Shown here: positions 10,118 to 36,894 of the stretch, in pieces
Numbering within the stretch: position 1 is the stretch's first letter
Layout: each line of letters starts with the position of its first letter
Assembly: GCA_020629795.1 (NCBI GenBank)
Contig: JAHDCR010000005.1
Span: forward strand, 1 to 52,567
Direction: 5' to 3'
Origin: Candidatus Altimarinota bacterium
GTDB taxonomy: Bacteria > Patescibacteriota > Gracilibacteria > BD1-5 > UBA6164
DNA: 52,567 nucleotides
Position numbers and translations under genes: made by a program
Notes under the pieces: model-generated
Database searches by the model: none
What the model was told of the DNA's origin: nothing
The model's input: only the letters and a program-made list of their open reading frames with translations

Positions 10118-10193
10118 GCAGTCATAGCTCAGTTGGAAGAGCGCGGGCCTGCGAAGCTCGAGGTCACAGGTTCGAACCCTGTTGATTGCACCA
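10118..10193 (+). tRNA. tRNA-Arg (anticodon GCG)
   Basis: A 76-nt cloverleaf. Acceptor GCAGTCA pairs with TGATTGC; the D stem is GCTC/GAGC; the anticodon stem is CGGGC/GCTCG with loop CTGCGAA, so the anticodon is GCG (reads CGC/CGU). The T arm is ACAGG-TTCGAAC-CCTGT and the CCA end is encoded. GCG in place of the ACG (inosine) usual in bacteria is uncommon. Confidence 0.93.
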
Positions 10194-10289
10194 TAAGTTT
10201 CTCTTGCGATAAGCGAAAGCGAATCGGAAGGAAAGTTACATCTCAAAACAGAATGTTTTGAATAGTGTATAATAGTAACTTATATTGAT

Positions 10290-10366
10290 GCACCCATAGC
10301 TCAATTGGATAGAGTACCGGTCTTCGAAGCCGTTGGTTGCTGGTTCGACTCCAGCTGGGTGCACCA
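10290..10366 (+). tRNA. tRNA-Arg (anticodon TCG)
   Basis: A 77-nt cloverleaf. Acceptor GCACCCA pairs with TGGGTGC, and CCA is encoded. The anticodon loop CTTCGAA gives anticodon UCG (reads CGA and, by wobble, other CGN). The T arm is GCTGG-TTCGACT-CCAGC. The anticodon stem has a C/T mismatch at its top pair (27-43). It lies 96 nt after the other tRNA-Arg and is probably cotranscribed with it. Confidence 0.92.
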
Positions 10367-10380
10367 GTTTAAAGATTAAA

Positions 10381-10410
10381 AAACTTCTAGAAATTTCTAG
10401 AAGTTTTTTG
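10381..10410 (+). terminator. Terminator of the tRNA-Arg pair
   Basis: A 26-nt perfect palindrome centred on TCTAGAAATTTCTAGA and followed by a T-run, 14 nt after the second tRNA-Arg. Its core recurs in the hairpins at 10984 and 11116. Confidence 0.8.
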
Positions 10411-10470
10411 ACTATTACTTTTATGTGTATATAAATATATTTAATATATAGTTTTTGATAAATTTCTCCT

Positions 10471-10908
10471 ATGTCTTTACATCATATAGTACCAAAACAC
10501 CGAGGTGGGTATAAATGAAGAGATAAGAATGTTATACCATTAACAGAACATTTTCATTGAGCATTACATACTATGTTTTGAGATGCCTCTCCTACTCAAC
10601 AAATTCAAGAAATACTATTTTTTGATGCTCCTGAAGGACAGAAGTTTCTAGATTTAGCATTATATTTATGAAGGCTTCAAAAAAAAACTGCAACAAGAAT
10701 ATATAAACCAGGGATAGTGATACAACCTTCCTTACTTCATTTACCAATTAATTATCGATGTAAGAGTCCAAGTAAAATACTAAGAGCAAACTGAGTTTTA
10801 TTTTGAGAGATAAAGCACACAGAAGAAAAAATATGAGTTATTTTATCAATATGAAAAAAAAGTCTTCAACAGGAATTCTCCGAAATAGTAAAAGACTTAC
10901 TTCAATAA
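10471..10908 (+). CDS. HNH-endonuclease-like small protein
   Basis: A 145-residue protein starting MSLHHIVPKHRGG, followed by DKNVIPLTEHFHGALHTMFG. This His-His, Gly-Gly, Asn-x-x-x-Leu, His-x-x-x-His spacing matches the HNH/beta-beta-alpha-metal nuclease pattern often seen in phage and homing endonucleases, and it lies at the extreme N-terminus. The remainder, about 100 residues and rich in Lys/Ile, matches nothing I recognise. Several TGA codons read as Gly. There is no Shine-Dalgarno sequence upstream (TTCTCCT instead). It lies alone between two nearly identical hairpins just after the tRNA-Arg pair. Nuclease activity is inferred from the motif only. A second frame stays open past the stop to 10985, so a 3' frameshift is possible. 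Confidence 0.6.
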
Positions 10909-10983
10909 TAAAAATTCACACTTCATCCAATAACTCTAATAAATTATCTCAACTAATATCTCAGGCACACCAGTTTGCGAAAT

Positions 10984-11018
10984 AAAAAAATCTCTAGAAA
11001 TTCCTAGAGATTTTTTTT
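10984..11018 (+). terminator. Terminator of the HNH-like gene
   Basis: Stem AAATCTCTAGAAA / TTCCTAGAGATTT followed by eight T. It closely resembles the tRNA terminator at 10381 in sequence (shared TCTAGAAATT core). Confidence 0.75.
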
Positions 11019-11115
11019 GATGATAAGAGCTTATATTTTGATAGTATATTATTATTTTCTTAATAGTATTAAAATATAGATAATAATCCAACCTGATTGA
11101 CTTGACTCAATAAAT

Positions 11116-11146
11116 AACCCCTTCTAGAAATATCCAGAAGGGGTTT
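11116..11146. terminator. Stem-loop related to the two preceding hairpins
   Basis: Stem AACCCCTTCT / AGAAGGGGTT around AGAAATATCC. It is the third hairpin within 750 nt carrying the TCTAGAAAT core. It lies 14 nt past the minus-strand lipoprotein stop and could terminate that gene, although the T-run on that strand is weak. Confidence 0.5.
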
Positions 11147-11160
11147 ATATTTATAAGATT

Positions 11161-11631
11161 TTAGTCTATATTAGCACAACCTGTGTAGCTTAGAGCTCCT
11201 GCTGTAAAACTGCTGGAATAAGTATAGACAAGATCACTCATACCATCAGAGCAGCTACCGAGAACTAAATCTAGATTCATATCTGCCGATACCATATTCA
11301 CGGATGTGCCCGAATTAGTTATTGTAACACCTGTAAACGTTGTTGTAGCCATAGGGCCTGTGTCACTAGGCTCTCTGAGAATAAAGGTACTTCCTGAGGC
11401 AGAAAATCACCAAAACGGCTCTGTACCATTTCAGGTAAATGAAGTCGTAGATAGATCTAAACTCTCAGAATCTGTTTCCACATCTCCTTGCTGAGATTGG
11501 TCTCATTGCTCTTGCTGTGAATCTATAACTGTATCCTCTACGGTGAGCATATCAGTATTTTCCTGGCTTTCTTCTTGGCTACAAGAAAATAGTAGTGAGA
11601 TACATACTATAAGAAGTATTATTTTTTTCAT
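11161..11631 (-). CDS. Lipoprotein with a COG3650-like C-terminal segment
   Basis: A 156-residue predicted lipoprotein. The signal MKKIILLIVCISLLFSC puts the lipid-bearing Cys at about residue 17. A low-complexity Gln/Glu/Asp/Ser-rich linker (about 18-60) precedes a compact C-terminal domain. There the pattern CSDGMSDLVYTYSS...YTGCA resembles the CSDGMSDrxYp...GCA signature I know from COG3650-type envelope lipoproteins; this match is from memory and only moderate. The two Cys of that motif could form a disulfide. It lies alone between hairpins. Confidence 0.65.
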
Positions 11632-11741: not shown

Positions 11742-12857
11742 TTAGTCTACATAGATATATCACTTGATAGTTCTATCATTGATAGGTACTTTACGAGTAG
11801 TTACCTCTCAAAGTGCTCTATAGTTCATATCTGAAACGATAATATGTGTTGATGTCATATCTATTACGATACCAACGTGACCATAATATGGATTATATCC
11901 TCTTCATTCAAATTGAACGATTGCACCAACTCACGGAGTAGTTCCTGTAGCATGTCATTTAGCAGCTGCATTTCTCATCCATTGGTTTGCGTTTCATCTC
12001 CAGTTTACATTTTTATACGAAGCAACATACCAAGTACAGTTTCCCCACACACCTGAGTATGGTTGTCTCCATACGAGATTATATTGACCTGAAGTATTTA
12101 CATACTCACTCTGAGCTTTAGCAGCAAAGCTGTAACCAGAGTTATTACTTGTTGTAGTAGAGGTCGTAGCAGCATATGTTTTTTTAGGAACAACTACTGG
12201 TTTAGGTACTTCTTTCTTAGCTCAAGGAATTATAATAGTATCCCCTATTTTTAGATCATTTGCACTGAGAAGCAGGTTTTGACGCATGATATCTTCACTA
12301 TCAATATCGTATTTTTGAGCAAGACCTCCTACAGTTTCACCAGAAACTACAGTGTGTATCAAACCTGAAACAGGTGGAACTTTTATTATATCTCCAGGTT
12401 GTATCACATGGCTTGATGCAAAATCATTAGCCCAATAAATAGAATCTCGAGTAATATTAAATTTACCAGCTATCAGAGCTACACTATCACCACCTTTTAC
12501 TTCATATTCGATGATTTCTTTTGTTGCAGAAACATCTCTATTATCTTCATCGAGTGCTGCATTTACAAAGAGATATGAGTCTTTTGATTGTATAAAAACA
12601 TCACCATCTCACAGTGTAGTTTCCTGCGAAAAATATGATGAAATAATGGTAGACTCATCAATATCTCCTCTATAAAACTCTGTATCAGAGTTTACAAAGC
12701 TTGCAAACGAAGGATAAATCGGAAGCATAAATAGAGCAATAATAGAAACTGCTGTAAGTCATGTCTTTCCTGTCTTTTTAGTACCAGCATATAGATTGTG
12801 CTGTAATACTCTTGAGTGTCGCTCAATACGAGCTCTTAAATTAATTTTGGATCCCAA
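11742..12857 (-). CDS. LysM-CHAP peptidoglycan hydrolase
   Basis: A 371-residue envelope protein that probably cleaves peptidoglycan. Order: basic N-terminus (RARIERHSRVLQHN), a membrane or signal segment at about 36-52 (LTAVSIIALFMLPIYP), two LysM repeats (about 125-212; IEYEVKGGDSVALIAGKF and IHTVVSGETVGGLAQKYDI), a Ser/Thr linker, and a C-terminal CHAP domain. The CHAP catalytic Cys274 is in NCTWYVA and His327 in YYGHVGIVI. No ATG gives the full frame: I use the TTG at 12857, because a TAA at 12867-12869 separates it from an ATG at 12896 that has a strong AGGAGA site. TGA-Gly codons occur in the CHAP and LysM domains. Confidence 0.85.
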
Positions 12858-26034: not shown

Positions 26035-29000
26035 TTATTTATAGAGCTGTACAAGATTGTCTACTAGCTCGATCATACTTGATCTTTGTACTCATGAATC
26101 AGGATAAAATCTTCCATTATCTCTACTTGAATCAAAGAGTCCAAGAGTCTCACCAGTAATAACATATTTTTCATGCCAAGAGGTTGTTATATCTGTGTAT
26201 CAGAGATTTACTGGGTTATTCACATCTATGAGTGAAAGTCTCATAAGTATTTTCACAGCTTCAGCTTTTGAAATAACATCATTTGGTCTAAATACTGAGT
26301 TTCCATTTTCATCAATATCTCCATTAATCATTCAAAGAGATTCAGCTTTTTTAATAACTTTTGCTTGCCATGATGATTTATCTATATCTGTATATGTGAG
26401 AGAATCTGTAGACTCATTTTGATATTCATAACAGTGAGAAATAAGTGCCACTTTGAGGAACTCAGTTCTTGTCATTTCATTTGATGGTCCAAAAGTTCCA
26501 TCCTCATATCCGTCTACAATTCCTATTTGAGCAAACTTGAGTATATTAGCTCTTTGAGCGCTGAGAGAAATATCAGAGAATACATCTTCAGCAAATTGAT
26601 ATAATGGATTTTGTATATTTCTAATAATATCACATGACGCAAAATCATTTTGCATAATATAATCCTCTCATTTTTCTGGAGTTATTTCTTCAACTTCTTG
26701 CTTTACTTCTTCATTTACATTCTCATTTTCATTAGGAATATTTTCTTCTACGCTTTCATTTGTATCTTGCTCATTTTCCTGAGCCGTATCCTCTGGATTA
26801 GAAGCATCAACAGTATATTCACATAATTCTGGTTTTGAGAATCAAGATTCCTCATAATTATTTGCCTCTGGATCTCGACATACATAGCTTCTTCAACCAG
26901 GAGTTCCAACTCAGCCACCTACAGGGTTTGATACACCAGGTCCTGATGGATCAATAATAGTTCCATTTACTACTCCATCCTCATCATTGCTGTCACCATC
27001 TGTAATATCATAACTCATCACGATTACTGACGAAGTTCAAACTGTCTCATTTCTATAGCTCACTATTGATGAAATATCTGTATAGATTTCAGTAAGTGAA
27101 TCGAATTTTTTATATACAAATGAGCTTGAATCAATACTTGAATCAAGATAAATTTGTATTTCTGCTGTTGATCCAGGTGTAGTACATTCTATTTCAAAAT
27201 CTAGGAGTCAGATTGGATACACAAAATCTTCGTCTTGAACTGACAAGTTTGATTCTGATAAAATATCAAAATTATTTACTCAACATGCTGCGTCTCAAAC
27301 TGCAAGTGACGTATAGGTAGAAGTAATAGGATTTATTCTTGTAGCTACATTTTTCTGAAGTGTATCTGGAGTCCCATCATTATTAAAGTCTCCATTGTTT
27401 GGGGCTGATGATTCTGTAGAGTCTGGAGTCCCATCTCCATCATCATCAGAGTCAAGATAGTTAGGGTTCATATCTCCATCGGTATCGAGATAGTCATTTC
27501 CATCGGAAGGATTTGTTCACTCTTCTATTTCTATTACATCAGGAACTCAATCTCCATCGGTATCAGAAGCGTTATCAACTACTCTCACTAGCCTTGTAAT
27601 TTGCGCTGCAATGTTTCCACTTGTGTCAGTATAGTCATATGTGAGGGTAAAACTCCCTGTTGAGCTTGTCGTAACTGGTCAACCAGCCGCAACAACATTT
27701 CACGTCCCATCATAATTATCACTAAATATAGCTCACGCATCACTATAACTATCTCCCACCTCTAATATGATTGAGTTGGAACCATTGAGAGTAATAGTTG
27801 GATTTGTCGTATCTACAATATTGATAGTTCTTGTAACCTGAGCTGCTTGATTTCCTGATGAATCAGTAAAGTTATAGCTAAGAGTATATTCTCATAGCGT
27901 ACTGGTATCAACTGCTCATACTCAAACTATTGAACCAGTTCCCTGCACATTATCAATAAATATAGCTCATAAATCTACATACGAAGATCCAACTTCTAGA
28001 TCAATCGCTTCACTACCATTTAAAGAAATTGTTGGTATAGCAGTATCTATGACTTCTACTGTACGTGATACAGGAGTTGCAATGTTTCATGATGAATCAG
28101 TATAATTGTATGTGAGAATAAAACTTCCTGTTGAGCTAGTGGTAACTGGTCAACCAGTTGCAACAAGGCTTCAAGTTCCATCAATAAAATCACTAAATTC
28201 TGCACCAGAATCGATGTAGTTATCACCTATTTCGAGGATTATTGAGCCACTTCAGATGAGAGCTATAACTGCTGATGTAGTATCTACAACATTCACCGTT
28301 CTTGTAATTTGTAGTGCAGCATTATTGTTAGCATCAGTATAATCATAGGTCAATGTCGTAGAACCAGTTGACGATGTATCTACCGTTCATACAGCAACTA
28401 TGCTTCAAGTCCCATCCAGATTATCTATAAATTCAGCTCACTCATCTACATAAAGAGCTCCTGCTTCAACTGTAACTGTACCACTTCCATTTAATAAAAT
28501 AGTAGGAATAGTGGTATCTACTATTCTGACAGTTCGAGTAATCTGATTAGCAGCATTATCAGATGAGTCAATATAATCATAGTAAAGAGTATATTCTCCA
28601 GGAGTGTTTATATTAACACTACCCGAAGCTATTATGTTTCATGAGCCATCTTCTATATCAGTATAAATTGCTCATAAATCGCTATACGGACTTCCAACTT
28701 CTTGCGTTATACTTCCAGAACCATTAAGTATAATTGTAGGAATGTTCCCAGCAATTACATTTACAGTTCTAGTGACTTGTATTGCTGTATTTCCACTGAT
28801 ATCAGAAACATTATAAGTTACGGTATAGGAATTAATTACTGAAGTATCTACCGGATTTACAACAACTATATTAGCGCTAATATCTCCATCTAAATTATCT
28901 CCTGCAGTTGCTCCTGGATCCGTATAAGTCGCATTTTTAAAAATCTCAATAGTACCACTTCCGTTTAGCGTAATAGTTGGAATCGTTGTATCCACAACAT

Positions 29001-32000
29001 TCACTATTCTCGTAACTTGCGTAGAAACATTTCATTCAACATCTGTATAGTCATAGCTCAATGTAAAACTTCCCGTTCATGATGTCGTAACTGGTCAACC
29101 AGTTGCAACTAAGCTTCCAGTACCATCTATAAAGTCACTAAATTCTGCTCCCAAATCTACATAGCTATCTCAGATTTCGAGATTAACCACCCCACTTCAA
29201 ACAAGACTTATAACTGCTGGAGTAGTATCTACAACATTCACTGTTCTTGTAACTTGAAGCGCTACATTTGAACTCGTATCTGTGTAGTCATAGGTCAATG
29301 TCGTAGAACCAGTTGACGATGTATCCACCGTTCATACTGCAGTGATACTTCATGTTCCATCTAGGTTATCTGCATATACAGCTCCGGCATCAATATAAGG
29401 GGCTCCTGCCTCAATCACTACTGTTCCACTTCCATTTAATGTAATAGTTGGAATCGTTGTATCCACAACATTCACTATTCTCGTAACTTGCGTAGAAACA
29501 TTTCATTCAACATCTGTATAGTCATAGCTCAATGTAAAACTTCCCGTTCATGATGTCGTAACTGGTCAACCAGTTGCAACTAAGCTTCCAGTACCATCTA
29601 TAAAGTCTGTAAACTCTGCTCAAAGATCACTGTAACTATCTCCTATCTCCAGAGTAATTGAACTTGCTCATACAAGTGAAATAATTGCAGGAGTTGTATC
29701 TACAACATTTACTGTTCTTGTAACTTGAGCTGCAGTATTTCATGAAGTATCTGTATAATCATAAGTAAGTTCAAAAACTCATACTGCATTTGAATTCACT
29801 ATTCAAACTCCGTTTACCGAACCTGTTCCATCATAATTATCTAAAAACTCAGCTCCAGTATCAATATATGATGTACCTGCTTCTACATCTACACTTCCTG
29901 CACCATTTAGGGAAATAACTGGAATAGTCGTATCCACTATATTTAGATTTCGAGTAACCTGGCTAGCTGAGTTCCCTGAACTATCAGTTACATCATAAGT
30001 TACAGTATAATTTCCAACAATGTTGGTATTAACTGTATTAGTTGTTGTAATACTCGATGTAAGGTCACCATCTTCATCATCTGAAGCAGTAGCTCATGCA
30101 TCAGAATATGATGAAAAAACTTCTTGTGTAATGGGAGTAGTTCATACGAGAGAAATGCTTGGGATATTACCAGCCACAACATTTATTGTTCTAGATACTT
30201 GCGTTGCAACATTGGCATTTGTATCAACAGCATCATAGCTAATAGTATATGACCCTACTGTATTTGTATCAATCGTTCATGAGCTTGTGACACTACATAA
30301 TGAATCATAGTTATCACTACACGTAGCTCCAGAATCACTGTAAGTAGCATTTTTTATTACCGTAATAGGTGAAGCTCAAGTTCGTACAATGACCGGAGGA
30401 GTTGTATCTACTACATTAACCGTCCTACTAATCTGGCTTGCTGAATTTCCTGCTACATCTGTGTAATCATAACTAATAGTATATGAGCCCAGTATTCATG
30501 TATTCACACTTCATGATCATACTACGGATCATGTACCCTCGATATTATCAGTATATGTAGCTCATAGGTCAGTAAATACTGAATTATATTCTACTGTTTG
30601 TGGACTCACTCATAATAAAGTAAGCGTAGGAGCTGTTGTATCTATAACATAATTTGATTCACTTTTTGATACGTTATTTCCTGCCGTATCTGTGGCTGAA
30701 ATAATTAAATCACCACTATCATCTATAGTTATCGTACAGTCAACTCTTGAAACATTTGTTTGACTACATGAAAATGATGATGTAGTAGCGGTACCTGTAC
30801 CACTAACAGTAACATTTCCCACTGAAATTGCATTATCATCAGTGATAGAAATAGTAGTATCTGTAATAGAAGCATTTTTAAGCTTAGTGGGAGCTGAAAT
30901 ACTGACTATTGGATCAACTATATCTATAATATATGATTGCGAATTACTTGCTTGAGCAACAATGAGATTATCTTCTGCAGATACTGTTACCGTTCATGAT
31001 GATGCAATATTAAGTATAGAACACACCACCGGTGTGGCATATGGGTCAGTCGTATCACCACCATTTCAAGTACAGGTTCACAGTGAAGCTCCAGTTGTAT
31101 TTGGAGTGAGAATTATATTAGTAATATCATTTCATGTTGGAGTAGATATGGTAACGGTAGAGTCTGTAATAGTAGTATTACTGAGAGTTGTTGGAGCATT
31201 AAATGTTATATTTGGAGGAAATCTCACAGTAGATTGAGAAGAGTTTCATGCTGAGTCATATACCGTTACGGTAACCACATGAAGACTCTCATCCGGATCT
31301 AAATCTAAAACTACAGGACTTGTAGCAGGATCTAGTGTAGTTGATAATCCAACTGTAACTGGAAGGCTATTATTAGTATTATACGTAACTGTATATCTAT
31401 CTACAGCAATATTATCGAGTGAAGAAAAACTAACATGAGGTCAATCTACACTATATGGAGCATCAGTATTCACAATAACATTAGGAATATTTGGAGCGAC
31501 ACTATCAATCACGTAGTTTGTCTCAGAAGCTGTTTGAGTATTTGACGAAGTATCACTCGCGCTAATTATAATATCACCTGAACTATCAATACTTATAGAA
31601 CAATTTACTTCTAAAGCACCACTTTGTGTACAGCTATAACTTGATATTGTAGCACTTCAAGATCCAGAAATAGCAACATTAGCTGCTAATACACCAATGT
31701 CATCTGTAACATTTATAGTTGTATCGGTAATAGAAGCATTATTGAGTTTTGTAGGAGCGGTAATAGTAATAACAGGAAGATTCTCATCCAAATCTCCTAT
31801 AGAAATACTAAAGTTTTCATCATATGTCGCTACTCCATCAGATACTCTGATACAGATGTTATAAGAAGATTTTGTTTCAAAGTCGTAAACTGCTCAGGCT
31901 TGAAGATTTGTCCCAGATATCTGAAAACTCGAATCATCTGTTCCAGGAGTACTACATGCAAGAGAAAATGTGAGAGTACTATTATCCTCTCCATCATCTG

Positions 32001-35000
32001 TTCAAGTAAGTTGCCCTATTATATCTCCTATAGAATTATTCTCATTAATAGTGCTCCCTGAAAGCGTAATATCTGCTGGAGCATTGTTAAGATTATTTAC
32101 AAATATCACTAATGCCTTTTGATATGTTCCTCATTTTCCATCATCTGTCATGACACGAACATTATAGCTGTTTTTTGTTTCATAATCTGCAACAAAATTT
32201 GCAATTAAGAGGGCCCCACTCAGACTAAAACTCGTATTATTATCAGAACCACTCCCACTCACAAGACTATATGTATGAGTATCTCATGTATTCGCGTCTG
32301 TAGTTGTTAGTCATCCTACGACATCTCCCGATGTTCCATTTTCATTCAGAGTACTTCATGAAAGTGTAATATTTGTTGGGATACTATTAAGTGTATTAAT
32401 AGCTCATGGGGTTGCACTACACTGATCTGACCAATCAGCTCAGGTATCTGTGTCTGTAAGATTTGTACGACAAATTGATGACTCAACTGCATTTAAATCC
32501 CAACCACCTGCACTATCTTCCCATGCTACAAAATCAATACTGTTTCACAAACTATCGTGTAGCTCTAAATAATCGTCTGGTGAGTTTTTTAAACCTAAGT
32601 AAGATGTTCCAGGTAGATCTAAATCTGGAGTCACACCTGGATAGAGATTTTGAAATTCTGTAGTATCGTTCACTATAAGGTAATATCATCCAGCAGGGAC
32701 AGTCACACCACTAAATGTATAAGAATTTGTACCAGTACCTGTTCCAACTTTTTCAGTTATGGTCCAATTATGTATCTTTACTCCAAATGCATTCGGATTA
32801 TGAATCTCAAACCATTCTGAATCATTTTCTACTCAAGCTGTATCATATTCAACTTCATTTATGAGTAGCTTCGCTGCAGCTACATTTACAGTTCTATTTA
32901 TTTGAGCCGCATCATTTCAACTACTATCAACAGAATTATAGTCAAAGGTATATACACCAACGGCTGTAAGGTCTAAATTCCCAGTACTAGTAACACCACA
33001 ACTTATATCATAGTTATCACTACAAGTAGCTCATGCATCTGTGTAACTATCTCCTTGAATAAGATTTATAGGACTTACACCATTTCTCGTAATTATCGGA
33101 GCTGTGGTATCTACAATATTTACAGTACGCGAAATTTGAGTTGCTGCATTATTAGAACTATCTGTAAAATCGTAGGTAAGAGTATATGATCATAGTGTAT
33201 TTATATCAACACTTCCTGAGGCAACTAAGCTTCCTGTACCATCTTCTGTATCTGAATACGATGCCCCAGCATCCATATAACTACTACCCACTTCTTGAGT
33301 TATTATTCCAGATCAGCTCAGAGTTATTACAGGAGTATTTCCAGCTACGACATTTACGGTACGTGAAATTTGAGTAGCTGCATTTCCAGATGCATCATCA
33401 ACATCATAAGTAACAGTATAGGAGTTGATGATAGATGTATTTACTGGATTTACAGTCACTATGTCAGCTGTAATATCTCAATCTAGGTTATCACTCGCAC
33501 TTGCTCAGGCATCTGCATATGTTGCATTTTTTGCAATGGTAATGCTACTAGATCATGAGAGAGCTAATACAGGTGGTGTTGTATCTACAACATTTACTAT
33601 TCTTGTAACTTGCGTCGCTGCATTCCCATTTGCATCTGTATAATCATAAGTCAGAGTAAAACTCCCGGTTCCTGCGGTAGTAACCGGTCATCCTGCTGCT
33701 ACAAGACTCCCTGTTCCATCATAATTATCTACCCAAGTAGCTCAAAGATCACTATAACTATCTCAAATTTCTAGAGTAATTGGGCTGGGTCAGGTTCTTG
33801 TAATCACTGGAGCTGTGGTATCTACTATATTTACGGTTCTACTTTCTTGAGTAGCTGGGTTTCCTGCTACATCTGTATAGTCATACGTAAGTATATATGA
33901 ACCCACTGTCGCGGTATCAACACTTCAAGATGCTAGTAAACTCCCTGTTCCATCTACATTATCACTCCAGGTAGCTCATGCGTCACTATAACTTCATCAT
34001 ACTTCTTGGGAAATAGTTCATGAGCCAGCAAGAGTAATTACTGGTGGAATTGTATCTGCTGCGGCAGTAACATTTACTGTTCTACTAACTTGCGAAGCTG
34101 CATTATCTGAACTATCAGTCACATCAAACTCAATAATATAGGTTCAAATAGTTGCAGTATCGACCGTTCAGCTGCTCGTGATGCTCCCTGAAATATCTCC
34201 ATCCTCAGTATCATTTGCCGTTGCTCAGGCATCTGTGTATGAACTTCACTGAGTTATATTTACTGTTCCACTTCCTACAAGATTTATGACTGGGATATCT
34301 CCAGTCACAACATTTACTGTTCTGATTACCTGCGTTGCTGTATTTCCTGCTGCATCACTCACATCGTAGGTTACAGTATATGCTCAAATCACTCCAGCAT
34401 TCACTGGATTAACGGTTATAATATTTGCTGTTATGTTTCCATCAGTGTTATCATTCGCAGTTGCTCCCGCATCCGAGTATGTTGCATTTTTAACTACACT
34501 CACCGGTGTAGATCCAGAGAGAGTAATAACCGGTGGAGTTGTATCTCCTCCAGCTACGACATTTACCGTTCGTGAAACTTGAGTTGCTGCATTTCCATTT
34601 GCATCTGTCGCGTTATATAAAAGTATATACTCTCCTACTATACTCGTATCAACTGTTCCACTAGGAACAACCGTACAACTAACATCATAATTATCACTAC
34701 AGGTCGCTCAAGCATCAGTATAAGTACTATTTTGAGCTACATTTATAGGAGTTGTTCCTGTAAGCGCTATAATTGGTATAGTCGTGTCTACTATATTTAC
34801 CGTTCTGGTAACCTGTGGAGCTGAATTTCCTGTCGCATCATCTACATCATAACTTACAGTATACGCTCAAACTACCGAGGTGTTAACTGGATTTACAACC
34901 ACAATACTTCCTGAAATATCACCATCCTCAGCATCAGATGCTGTAGCTCATGCATCTATATAACTCCCCCCAACTTCAAGAGTTATAGGAGTTGTTCCTG

Positions 35001-36894
35001 TTAGTGTGATAGTTGGAATTCATCATGTAACTACATTTACTGTTCTTGTAACTTGAGTTGCATTATTTCATGCAGCATCTACTGCGTCATAAGTCAAAGT
35101 ATATGTACCCAAAGTATTTATATCAACACTTCCAGATAGTGTAACGCTACAACTCGTATCATAGTTATCGCTACATGTTGCTCATACATCACTATACCCT
35201 GTTCATTTAATAACATTTATAGTTCCAGAACCACTCAGGGTGATAACTGGGGCAACTGAGTCTATCACATAGTTTTGAGTACTATTTCCAGACGTTACTC
35301 CGTCACTCACAGTAACATCGAGAGTAGATGTAGCTGAAATAACTCAACCAGAACAACTAATTGGAGGAACCTGTGTCCCTACGAATGAATATAATGTATT
35401 ACTTGGAACTTCCTCCCCTCAACAGGTAAAGTTAGTCGAGAGTGATCCATTTATCTGTATCGTTAAAATTGCTGTAGGCCCCTCAATACTAATTGTGGTA
35501 TCAGCTATCCCTGTATTTGAAAGAAGTGTTGGAGCTGTAATATTTACAACTGGGGGAAATGAAGCACTGGATTCAGTAAAATTTCCAGCTGTATCGTAGG
35601 CCCTTACTACAACTGTATGGGAAAGTGCAGGTGAAAGTGACGCACTGTGTGGACTTGTCTGAGTTGTAAAAGCTCCCCCATCAAAAGATATTTCATAATG
35701 GTCCACAGCTACATTATCACTCGCAGAAAATGAAACAATTGGATTATCTTTTCCTCACGATATATCTATATCAAGTGGGAAAGCTGAAGGAGCAGTTGTA
35801 TCTACTATATTTACTGTTCTACTCACTTGCGTCGCAATATTATCTGATGAATCAGTTACATCGTAACTAATCGTATAAGTACCTACTGTATTAGTGTCCA
35901 CACTTCCACTACTCACAATATTGAGAGAGATGTCACCATCTTCACTGTCAGTCGCAGTTGCTCACGCATCTGTATATGAACTTCCGACTTCTAGAGTGAT
36001 TGGTGTTGTTCATGAAAGTGAAATTACTGGAGCGTCTCAAGCTACAACATTTACAACTCGAGTTACCTGAGTTGCAGCATTTCCTGCTGCATCACTCACG
36101 TTATATGTCACGTTATATGTTCAAATAACTCCAGTATTCACTGGATTAACGGTTGTTATATTTGCTGTTAAATCTCCATCCTCTATATCACTCGCTGTTG
36201 CTCCTGCATCTACATATGTTGCATTTTTCACTATATTTACTGGGGTACTTCATACGAGAGATATAACTGGAGCATTTGTATCTGGAGTAGGAGTATGATG
36301 CACAGTCATAGTAACTCTGAATACATTTGCTTGGTGAGATCATCCACCTCAAGTAGAAATGAAGTTAATATAGATACCAAAGTTAGATGAAAGTATATCA
36401 TTTCCCGACCAAGTAGTCCCCCATAAGTCTGTACTACTCCCATATGATCGAAACGCTTTCGCGTTATTTGGAGTATTTGTCGCAACATTGGTTCACACTC
36501 ATACAAGTCAGTCCTTTGTGAGTTGGATAGCATTATCCGCAACTTTTGAGTTACTACTATATTCCACTTGTATTTCAATACCGTTAATAGTAGAGCTATT
36601 TGTGATTCATTGTGAAGCAAAATTAAAGTTGTTGAGCACCAGTGCATCAGTCACTTTACCATTCCCAGAAAAAAGTACTGAAGAAGAAGTTGTTGTTGTG
36701 TTTCCTTGAGCATTAGCAAGACTTCACCAAGCTGCTGCATTTGGACCAGGAGCATTTACTGCTCTCACTCCATAGGTTAAAGTAGTTGTGTTAGCATATG
36801 TTTGAGCAGGAATACTCAGGAATGGAATAAAGAACGAGAATATGTAAAAAACCAGCACAAATAAAGATATAAGCTTTTTGTATATTATTTGCAA
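26035..36894 (-). CDS. Giant SLH-anchored Ig-like repeat surface protein (3619 aa)
   Basis: One frame stays open for 10,860 nt. Order by residue: signal peptide 1-33 ([19 protein letters not shown]); an N-terminal beta-rich domain to about 200; a first block of DUF5011-type Ig-like repeats to about 1338 (consensus P-I-I-T-L-x-G, VGxxYxDxGA, DxxDG, VDTxxxGxYTLTYxxxD, [13 protein letters not shown]; about 78 residues each), interrupted near 370-550 by other Ig-like domains; a lamin-tail domain at about 1338-1498 ([17 protein letters not shown]); two cadherin-like domains to about 1700; more Ig-like domains to about 2085; a second DUF5011 block to about 3110; a Ca-binding DTDGDG strip; a choice-of-anchor-U-like domain; a [14 protein letters not shown] motif; an acidic linker; and three SLH repeats (3421-3618). 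I count about two dozen DUF5011 units. The start is TTG 36894; no ATG fits. Probable adhesin or S-layer-bound fibre. Confidence 0.85.
28970..29136. repeat. 167-bp identical repeat, copy A
   Basis: Within the giant gene. By eye it matches 29441-29607 over 167 nt with no difference, at an offset of 471 nt (157 codons, two Ig-like units). Neighbouring sequence is similar but not identical. Confidence 0.85.
29441..29607. repeat. 167-bp identical repeat, copy B
   Basis: Second copy of 28970-29136 inside the giant gene. Synonymous positions are also unchanged, which indicates recent duplication or gene conversion rather than conserved protein function alone. Confidence 0.85.

Follow-up and report, generated by a model that had tools for sequence, protein, structure and literature searches.

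Why does a small HNH-like gene lie beside a pair of tRNA-Arg genes, among hairpins that resemble one another, in a Gracilibacterium, an ultra-small bacterium? The locus is part of a 52,567-nucleotide stretch of DNA (contig JAHDCR010000005.1; hereafter the window), and a first-pass annotation made from the letters alone had supposed that the gene could be a small mobile or homing element that duplicated the tRNA terminator on insertion. Here, we propose that the islet arose by insertion behind tRNA-Arg(tcg), at its 3' end, and is one case of a wider family habit of using tRNA 3' ends as insertion points, of which a 70-nt element behind the CCA of many tRNAs, presumably spread non-autonomously by an enzyme acting in trans, would be the clearest case. 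We put the probability of this reading as a whole at about 0.6.

The window genome (G000) was set against three comparison sets: 48 genomes of its family, 29 other genomes of the order, and 353 genomes of the class. The 47 other family genomes include seven of the same genus (68-97% complete), and many relatives are drafts, so that single absences are weak.

The islet behind tRNA-Arg(tcg)

The features of the locus are as follows.

10118-10193, + strand: tRNA-Arg(gcg) (ARAGORN; Rfam RF00005)
10194-10267, + strand: a copy of the tRNA-tail element, in the spacer of the tRNA-Arg pair (covariance model, sequence reading)
10194-10238, + strand: hairpin a of the tRNA-tail element (model match 10193-10238)
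about 10239-10267, + strand: hairpin b of the element, a variant outside the CATC...GATG pattern, its end read from the sequence
10290-10366, + strand: tRNA-Arg(tcg), behind which the HNH cassette lies (ARAGORN)
10362-10409, + strand: direct repeat copy 1, the tRNA 3' end CACCA followed by GTTT, trailer and terminator (repeat search, alignment)
10376-10411: hairpin 1, a two-way terminator whose counterpart is the single terminator of G006 (hairpin search, site comparison)
10471-10908, + strand: HNH-like gene, 145 aa with TGA as Gly (ORF by table 25; HNH assignment by family profile)
10968-11016, + strand: direct repeat copy 2, CACCAGTTT followed by trailer and terminator (repeat search, alignment)
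10984-11017: hairpin 2, the likely terminator of the HNH gene (hairpin search)
11116-11145: hairpin 3, a terminator facing the lipoprotein gene (hairpin search)
11161-11631, - strand: lipoprotein-like gene (named by reading; no Pfam match)
11742-12857, - strand: LysM-CHAP gene, the right-side syntenic anchor (Pfam)

The source bacterium reads TGA as glycine, and table 25 is needed to see the HNH-like gene, an intact frame of 145 aa (10471-10908) that starts MSLHHIVPKHRGG; under table 11 no such frame of at least 60 aa is listed. Its eight TGA codons supply 8 of its 12 glycines, which argues that the gene was acquired from, or has long resided in, a lineage with this code. The gene is also AT-richer (GC 0.301, GC3 0.14) than the eight window genes measured (0.32-0.397 and 0.20-0.29).

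The HNH-type start read by the first-pass annotation held up against the protein's relatives. Residues H4, H5, N20, H29 and H33 are invariant in all five family members aligned, an arrangement that corresponds at the sequence level to the His-His/Asn/His motif of the beta-beta-alpha metal fold and so points to the HNH superfamily. A profile of the five matches PDB HNH domains over about 28 positions (E=7e-4), and Pfam HNH_5 matches two of them (best E=7e-4), the window protein not being one of the two. Alone, the window protein matches no Pfam, NCBIfam or PADLOC family, reaches only E=0.35 against phrog_589, gives a single-sequence structure model with a pLDDT of 38, and returned nothing useful from viral contigs, phages or genome contigs. 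The first single-protein search gave weak matches (E 8e-4 to 0.5) in six genomes of family f2, five of which were confirmed by the profile (built from the window protein and four f2 matches, with five places, L010 and L013-L016, omitted); G056, G051:C10 and G058:C38 were unconfirmed.

At E<=1e-5 no match to the gene was found in the 47 other family genomes, the seven same-genus ones included, and there is a single marginal match above that threshold (G015, E=0.07). At the same threshold a relative is present in 7 of 27 genomes of family f2, and members occur sporadically across the class, in 19 of 353 genomes with the window genome counted. Among genomes that are in many cases drafts, so scattered a distribution looks like that of a gene passed around. 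In one case (G189, L217) the gene begins some 50 nt past a tRNA-Tyr of the same orientation, with no repeated tRNA end in the stretch examined. Another genome (G052; L094, L100) has two different HNH-like copies, 88 aa where complete, which are 91% identical over 128 nt and have similar upstream DNA; one is cut by the contig end.

What does the site look like in relatives? Only about 60 nt, holding a single terminator hairpin, separate tRNA-Arg(tcg) from the last CHAP codons in G006 and G007. The G006 terminator is a near-perfect palindrome that differs from hairpin 1 at 2 of 32 positions by reading. These near-empty sites would represent the gene-free allele that a homing gene leaves in close relatives, and the gene is clearly not fixed at this place, a point that the first-pass annotation had proposed to check. 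By reading of translations, G004 and G005 hold a lipoprotein-like gene, similar to that of the window and in the same spot, together with a membrane protein, and G003 has a methyltransferase-like gene; G002 has a 149-codon frame. No lipoprotein-like gene is present in G006 or G007. Since the cargo differs or is missing among relatives, the spot behind tRNA-Arg(tcg) is variable.

A sign of insertion comes from the DNA around the gene. The 9-mer CACCAGTTT, a copy of the tRNA-Arg end, precedes hairpin 2 at the same offset, within 1 nt, as it precedes hairpin 1, so the gene is enclosed by a direct repeat of tRNA end and terminator, an insertion signature. Of its three occurrences in 265 kb of strand, two are those before hairpins 1 and 2, and in a local alignment of the tRNA end-terminator unit the second copy reaches a score of 55, while no place outside the islet exceeds 38. 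The exact part of the second copy is 9 nt, before an AT-rich trailer, and being this short it could be chance, which we estimate at a few in 100,000 for an exact 9-mer in place. The cargoes of G002, G003, G004 and G005 have no such repeat: CACCA occurs on that strand once in the G004 cargo, not before a terminator, and in none of the other three. Two further points count against the insertion reading: hairpin 3 has the core but no tRNA end, and relatives of the HNH gene rarely have a tRNA nearby. Because the tRNA end itself is copied, the finding goes beyond the terminator duplication that had been guessed.

The resemblance among the hairpins is confirmed. The core TCTAGAAATWTC, which all three had been said to share, is present in hairpins 1 and 3; hairpin 2 carries CTAGAAATTCC only, so there the shared core is approximate. 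Among the 5995 pairs formed by 110 terminator-like hairpins in 132.6 kb of the window genome (the window and four 20-kb stretches), and by a similarity measure picked after the hairpins had been seen, hairpins 1 and 3 are the single best pair (18/20) and hairpins 1 and 2 are joint second (17/20, tied with one unrelated pair), while hairpins 2 and 3 are ordinarily alike (13/20). The exact 12-mer TCTAGAAATWTC has six genome matches against two for the pattern read backwards. Three of the six are inside the islet, in hairpin 1 (both strands) and hairpin 3, and no terminator-like hairpin bearing the core was found at the three places outside. The ranks and counts together indicate that the likeness exceeds the sampled background and that the core is not a genome-wide terminator sequence, a possibility that the first-pass annotation had raised against itself and that we reject.

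The presence/absence pattern and the repeat are observed directly; from them we infer that a cassette of about 600 bp with the HNH-like gene entered the spot behind tRNA-Arg(tcg), and that this single event also left the tRNA 3' end and terminator doubled, one copy on each side of the gene. The cassette would most likely have come in through recombination with a donor molecule that belonged to another TGA=Gly bacterium and had a similar tRNA end and terminator; neither a donor nor a second copy of the cassette was found. No integrase gene was recognised in the islet, where between 10366 and 11113 the HNH gene alone was recognised as a gene (the other listed ORF, of 60 aa at 10803-10985, overlaps it). 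The HNH protein is only a candidate for the mover of the cassette.

Could the gene instead be an ordinary accessory gene, brought by ordinary recombination, with the hairpins being unrelated two-way terminators that look alike because an AT-rich genome has few options? Relatives do fill this spot with other genes (G002, G003 and G004/G005), next to which terminator-like hairpins can be read, and HNH relatives are sporadic and as a rule not linked to tRNAs. However, two of the three hairpin pairs head the ranking of all 5995, and a copy of the tRNA end stands ahead of hairpin 2, which leaves this explanation unlikely. Self-driven homing, in which the HNH protein would cleave the palindromic terminator behind tRNA-Arg and donor repair would copy the gene in, is improbable enough to be given little weight: the motif residues are conserved, gene-free G006 has a similar near-perfect palindrome, and repeats flank the gene, but a tRNA is present in the examined stretch (mostly 1.5 kb each side) of only 3 of 20 family matches among the class genomes, the window's included, hairpin 3 shares the core and has no tRNA end, and the likely target lies on both sides of the gene, so that insertion would leave it intact. 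Of the original idea, then, duplication on insertion fits the repeat, and the HNH gene as its own mobile agent is unsupported. We judge the insertion behind the tRNA to be real and apparently confined to this lineage, with both the tRNA end and the terminator copied.

A dispersed element behind tRNA ends

A DNA search with the tRNA pair brought out places behind other tRNAs, with similarity limited to the spacer of the tRNA-Arg pair. This spacer (10194-10267) is a single copy of an element of about 70 nt, dispersed and made of two hairpins. Its form is TTAAGTTTCTCTTGCGATAA-(variable hairpin tip)-GAATCGGAAGGAAAGTTA, with a second hairpin CATC...GATG behind it in 28 of 40 copies. A covariance model places it at 40 or more positions in at least 17 of the 48 family genomes; these counts are lower bounds, since the filters were strict and only 80 (family search) or 17 (class search) out of several hundred initial candidates per genome went on to scoring. 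The family search gave 41 rows, one of which (G019:C14, + strand) is the reverse reading of a listed palindrome and was dropped. Outside the 40 are two family places from the class search (G001:C16, G034:C99) and the interior-variant copy behind tRNA-Ala of the window genome. At most six places were found per genome.

Among the candidates scored, the model found no element in the 29 other genomes of the order, and a second model found no clear one outside the family in the 353 class genomes. Four weak matches lie outside the order (E 9e-4 to 8e-3; two with a tRNA in the stretch examined), about what chance allows for so many genomes. The pattern TTAAGTTTCNCTTGCGAYRA recovered 16 stretches from genome contigs, 12 of them from Gracilibacteria, and, as an exact pattern, none from viral contigs. 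We rejected the stretches from Algibacter, Crocinitomix and Planctomycetales as elements outside Gracilibacteria: they have no ARAGORN tRNA and lack the second hairpin half, and were therefore taken as chance. Rfam has no match to 10194-10267 up to E=1, and on eight element loci up to E=5 only tRNA, rRNA and below-cut-off matches, some of them overlapping an element. A literature search found no report of such an element.

The link to tRNAs is close. None of the 40 places is farther than about 210 nt from a tRNA gene (39 by ARAGORN, one by reading of a contig-cut tRNA-Leu end), where roughly 1.4% would be expected to lie so close assuming 30 tRNAs in 1.1 Mb; of these places, 17 had served to train the model, which contains no more than one tRNA base. 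At 23 places the element shares the strand of the tRNA and begins -1 to +2 nt from its end, the other 17 not being flush with an intact tRNA end. The strand is that of the nearest tRNA at 38 places and opposite at two (G008:C7 by script, G007:C52 by reading). Flush copies occur behind tRNAs for Arg, Phe, Ala, Ser, Pro, Ile, Tyr, Leu, Gln and Asp.

Compensatory changes are present at 10 of 17 stem pairs in an alignment of 38 rows (two of the 40 copies are exact duplicates), in 49 cells compared with 14.7 in shuffles that ignore relatedness and at most 7 when slid; one of the counted pairs (columns 5/49) is unpaired in 29 of the 38 rows. Changes on both sides of the stem suggest that selection probably acts on the fold, either in RNA or in single-stranded DNA.

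Several observations point to movement. Presence is patchy and the occupied tRNAs differ between species. The window genome has three known copies among 26 tRNAs found, behind tRNA-Arg(gcg), tRNA-Phe and tRNA-Ala, and the last is missing at the same tRNA in seven relatives (G001-G005, G007, G008). Nesting is seen behind tRNA-Leu(caa), where a different tRNA-linked element encloses the copy in G070, G010 and, judged by its flank, G071; in G010, tRNA-Tyr is followed by two fused copies. A tRNA 5' fragment, broken off in the D loop, precedes the element in G007 and G023, and the same tRNA is found intact downstream. Separately, TTTAAGTTTCT and TTAAGTTTCT, directly behind the CCA of G002 tRNA-Ile (L142) and G003 tRNA-Pro (L145), resemble the first ten bases of the element's left end, with the rest missing.

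A rather unlikely alternative is that the element is a functional, non-mobile tail of tRNA precursors, a hairpin for processing or stability spread by selection and recombination. The RNA-type covariation, the shared strand and the limitation of clear matches to one family, among candidates scored, are all consistent with such a tail. Against it, few tRNAs of the window genome carry the element, different species have it on different tRNAs, copies are nested in another element, and none was found among the candidates scored in G002 and G005, both 97% complete. We return, then, to a non-autonomous mobile element. More specifically, and at somewhat less than even odds, the two-hairpin copies would form a mobile family that targets the junction behind CCA, moved by an enzyme possibly working through an RNA or single-strand intermediate and reading the tRNA end, with the HNH cassette and a second, 150-bp element sharing the route.

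Known systems and other tRNA-linked DNA

How does this compare with known mobile DNA? Like REP/REPIN sequences, which are moved by RAYT (Y1 HUH) transposases, the element is a short, imperfect, dispersed and non-autonomous palindrome with internal mismatches. Unlike them, it is tied to tRNA genes, with few places per genome, and GTAG, GGAG or CGTC is at the palindrome foot in 0 of 40 copies. Y1 transposase has no match in G000-G006 and a below-cut-off fragment in G007. Y1_Tnp exceeds the cut-off in 15 of the 48 family genomes, three of them with the element; of the 17 element genomes, 13 have no match, one is below the cut-off and three are over it (G008, G016, G019). With no tag and no Y1 match in the window genome, we reject REP/RAYT membership.

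Integrative elements that use tRNA attachment sites leave a second tRNA 3' end on the far flank of the inserted DNA, and the HNH cassette and the 150-bp elements likewise come with duplicated tRNA 3' ends. The inserts described here differ in having no recognised integrase gene in the islet and in being only ~70 to 600 bp long. The HNH gene is, by sequence, like free-standing HNH homing endonuclease genes in being small and present or absent at one site. Bacterial integrases usually use one tRNA as attachment site, and recognition of features common to tRNAs is known for some eukaryotic retrotransposons. An element lying flush behind ten tRNA types implies a mechanism that recognises what tRNAs share, and our literature search found no bacterial case of this. 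The tRNA-tail element is the more unusual object of the two. Rickettsia palindromic elements and CGTC repeats (PMC3733652) are palindromic and mobile-like and have no known dedicated transposase; the tRNA-tail element, for which no mover was found, is alike in all three respects, and differs in having no CGTC tag and in that most copies lie behind tRNA ends.

If the proposal is true, it would mean that genome change is still under way in reduced bacteria of the candidate phyla radiation, and the element would be a marker for finding its mover.

The second element, of about 150 bp, lies behind tRNA-Tyr, -His, -Leu(taa) and -Asn (L131, L133, L117, L115, L126; genomes G010, G028, G070 and G019). 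It ends in a copy of its own tRNA's 3' end from the T loop, exact over 17-21 nt in the four tested, and its left arm has an inverted copy of the T-loop sequence. The copy at tRNA-His of G010 is more diverged, and the site at tRNA-Tyr is occupied in G010 and empty in G071. Elsewhere in the window, a single open frame of 3619 codons on the - strand (26035-36894, TGA as Gly) contains many similar repeats and, by reading, resembles a giant surface protein.
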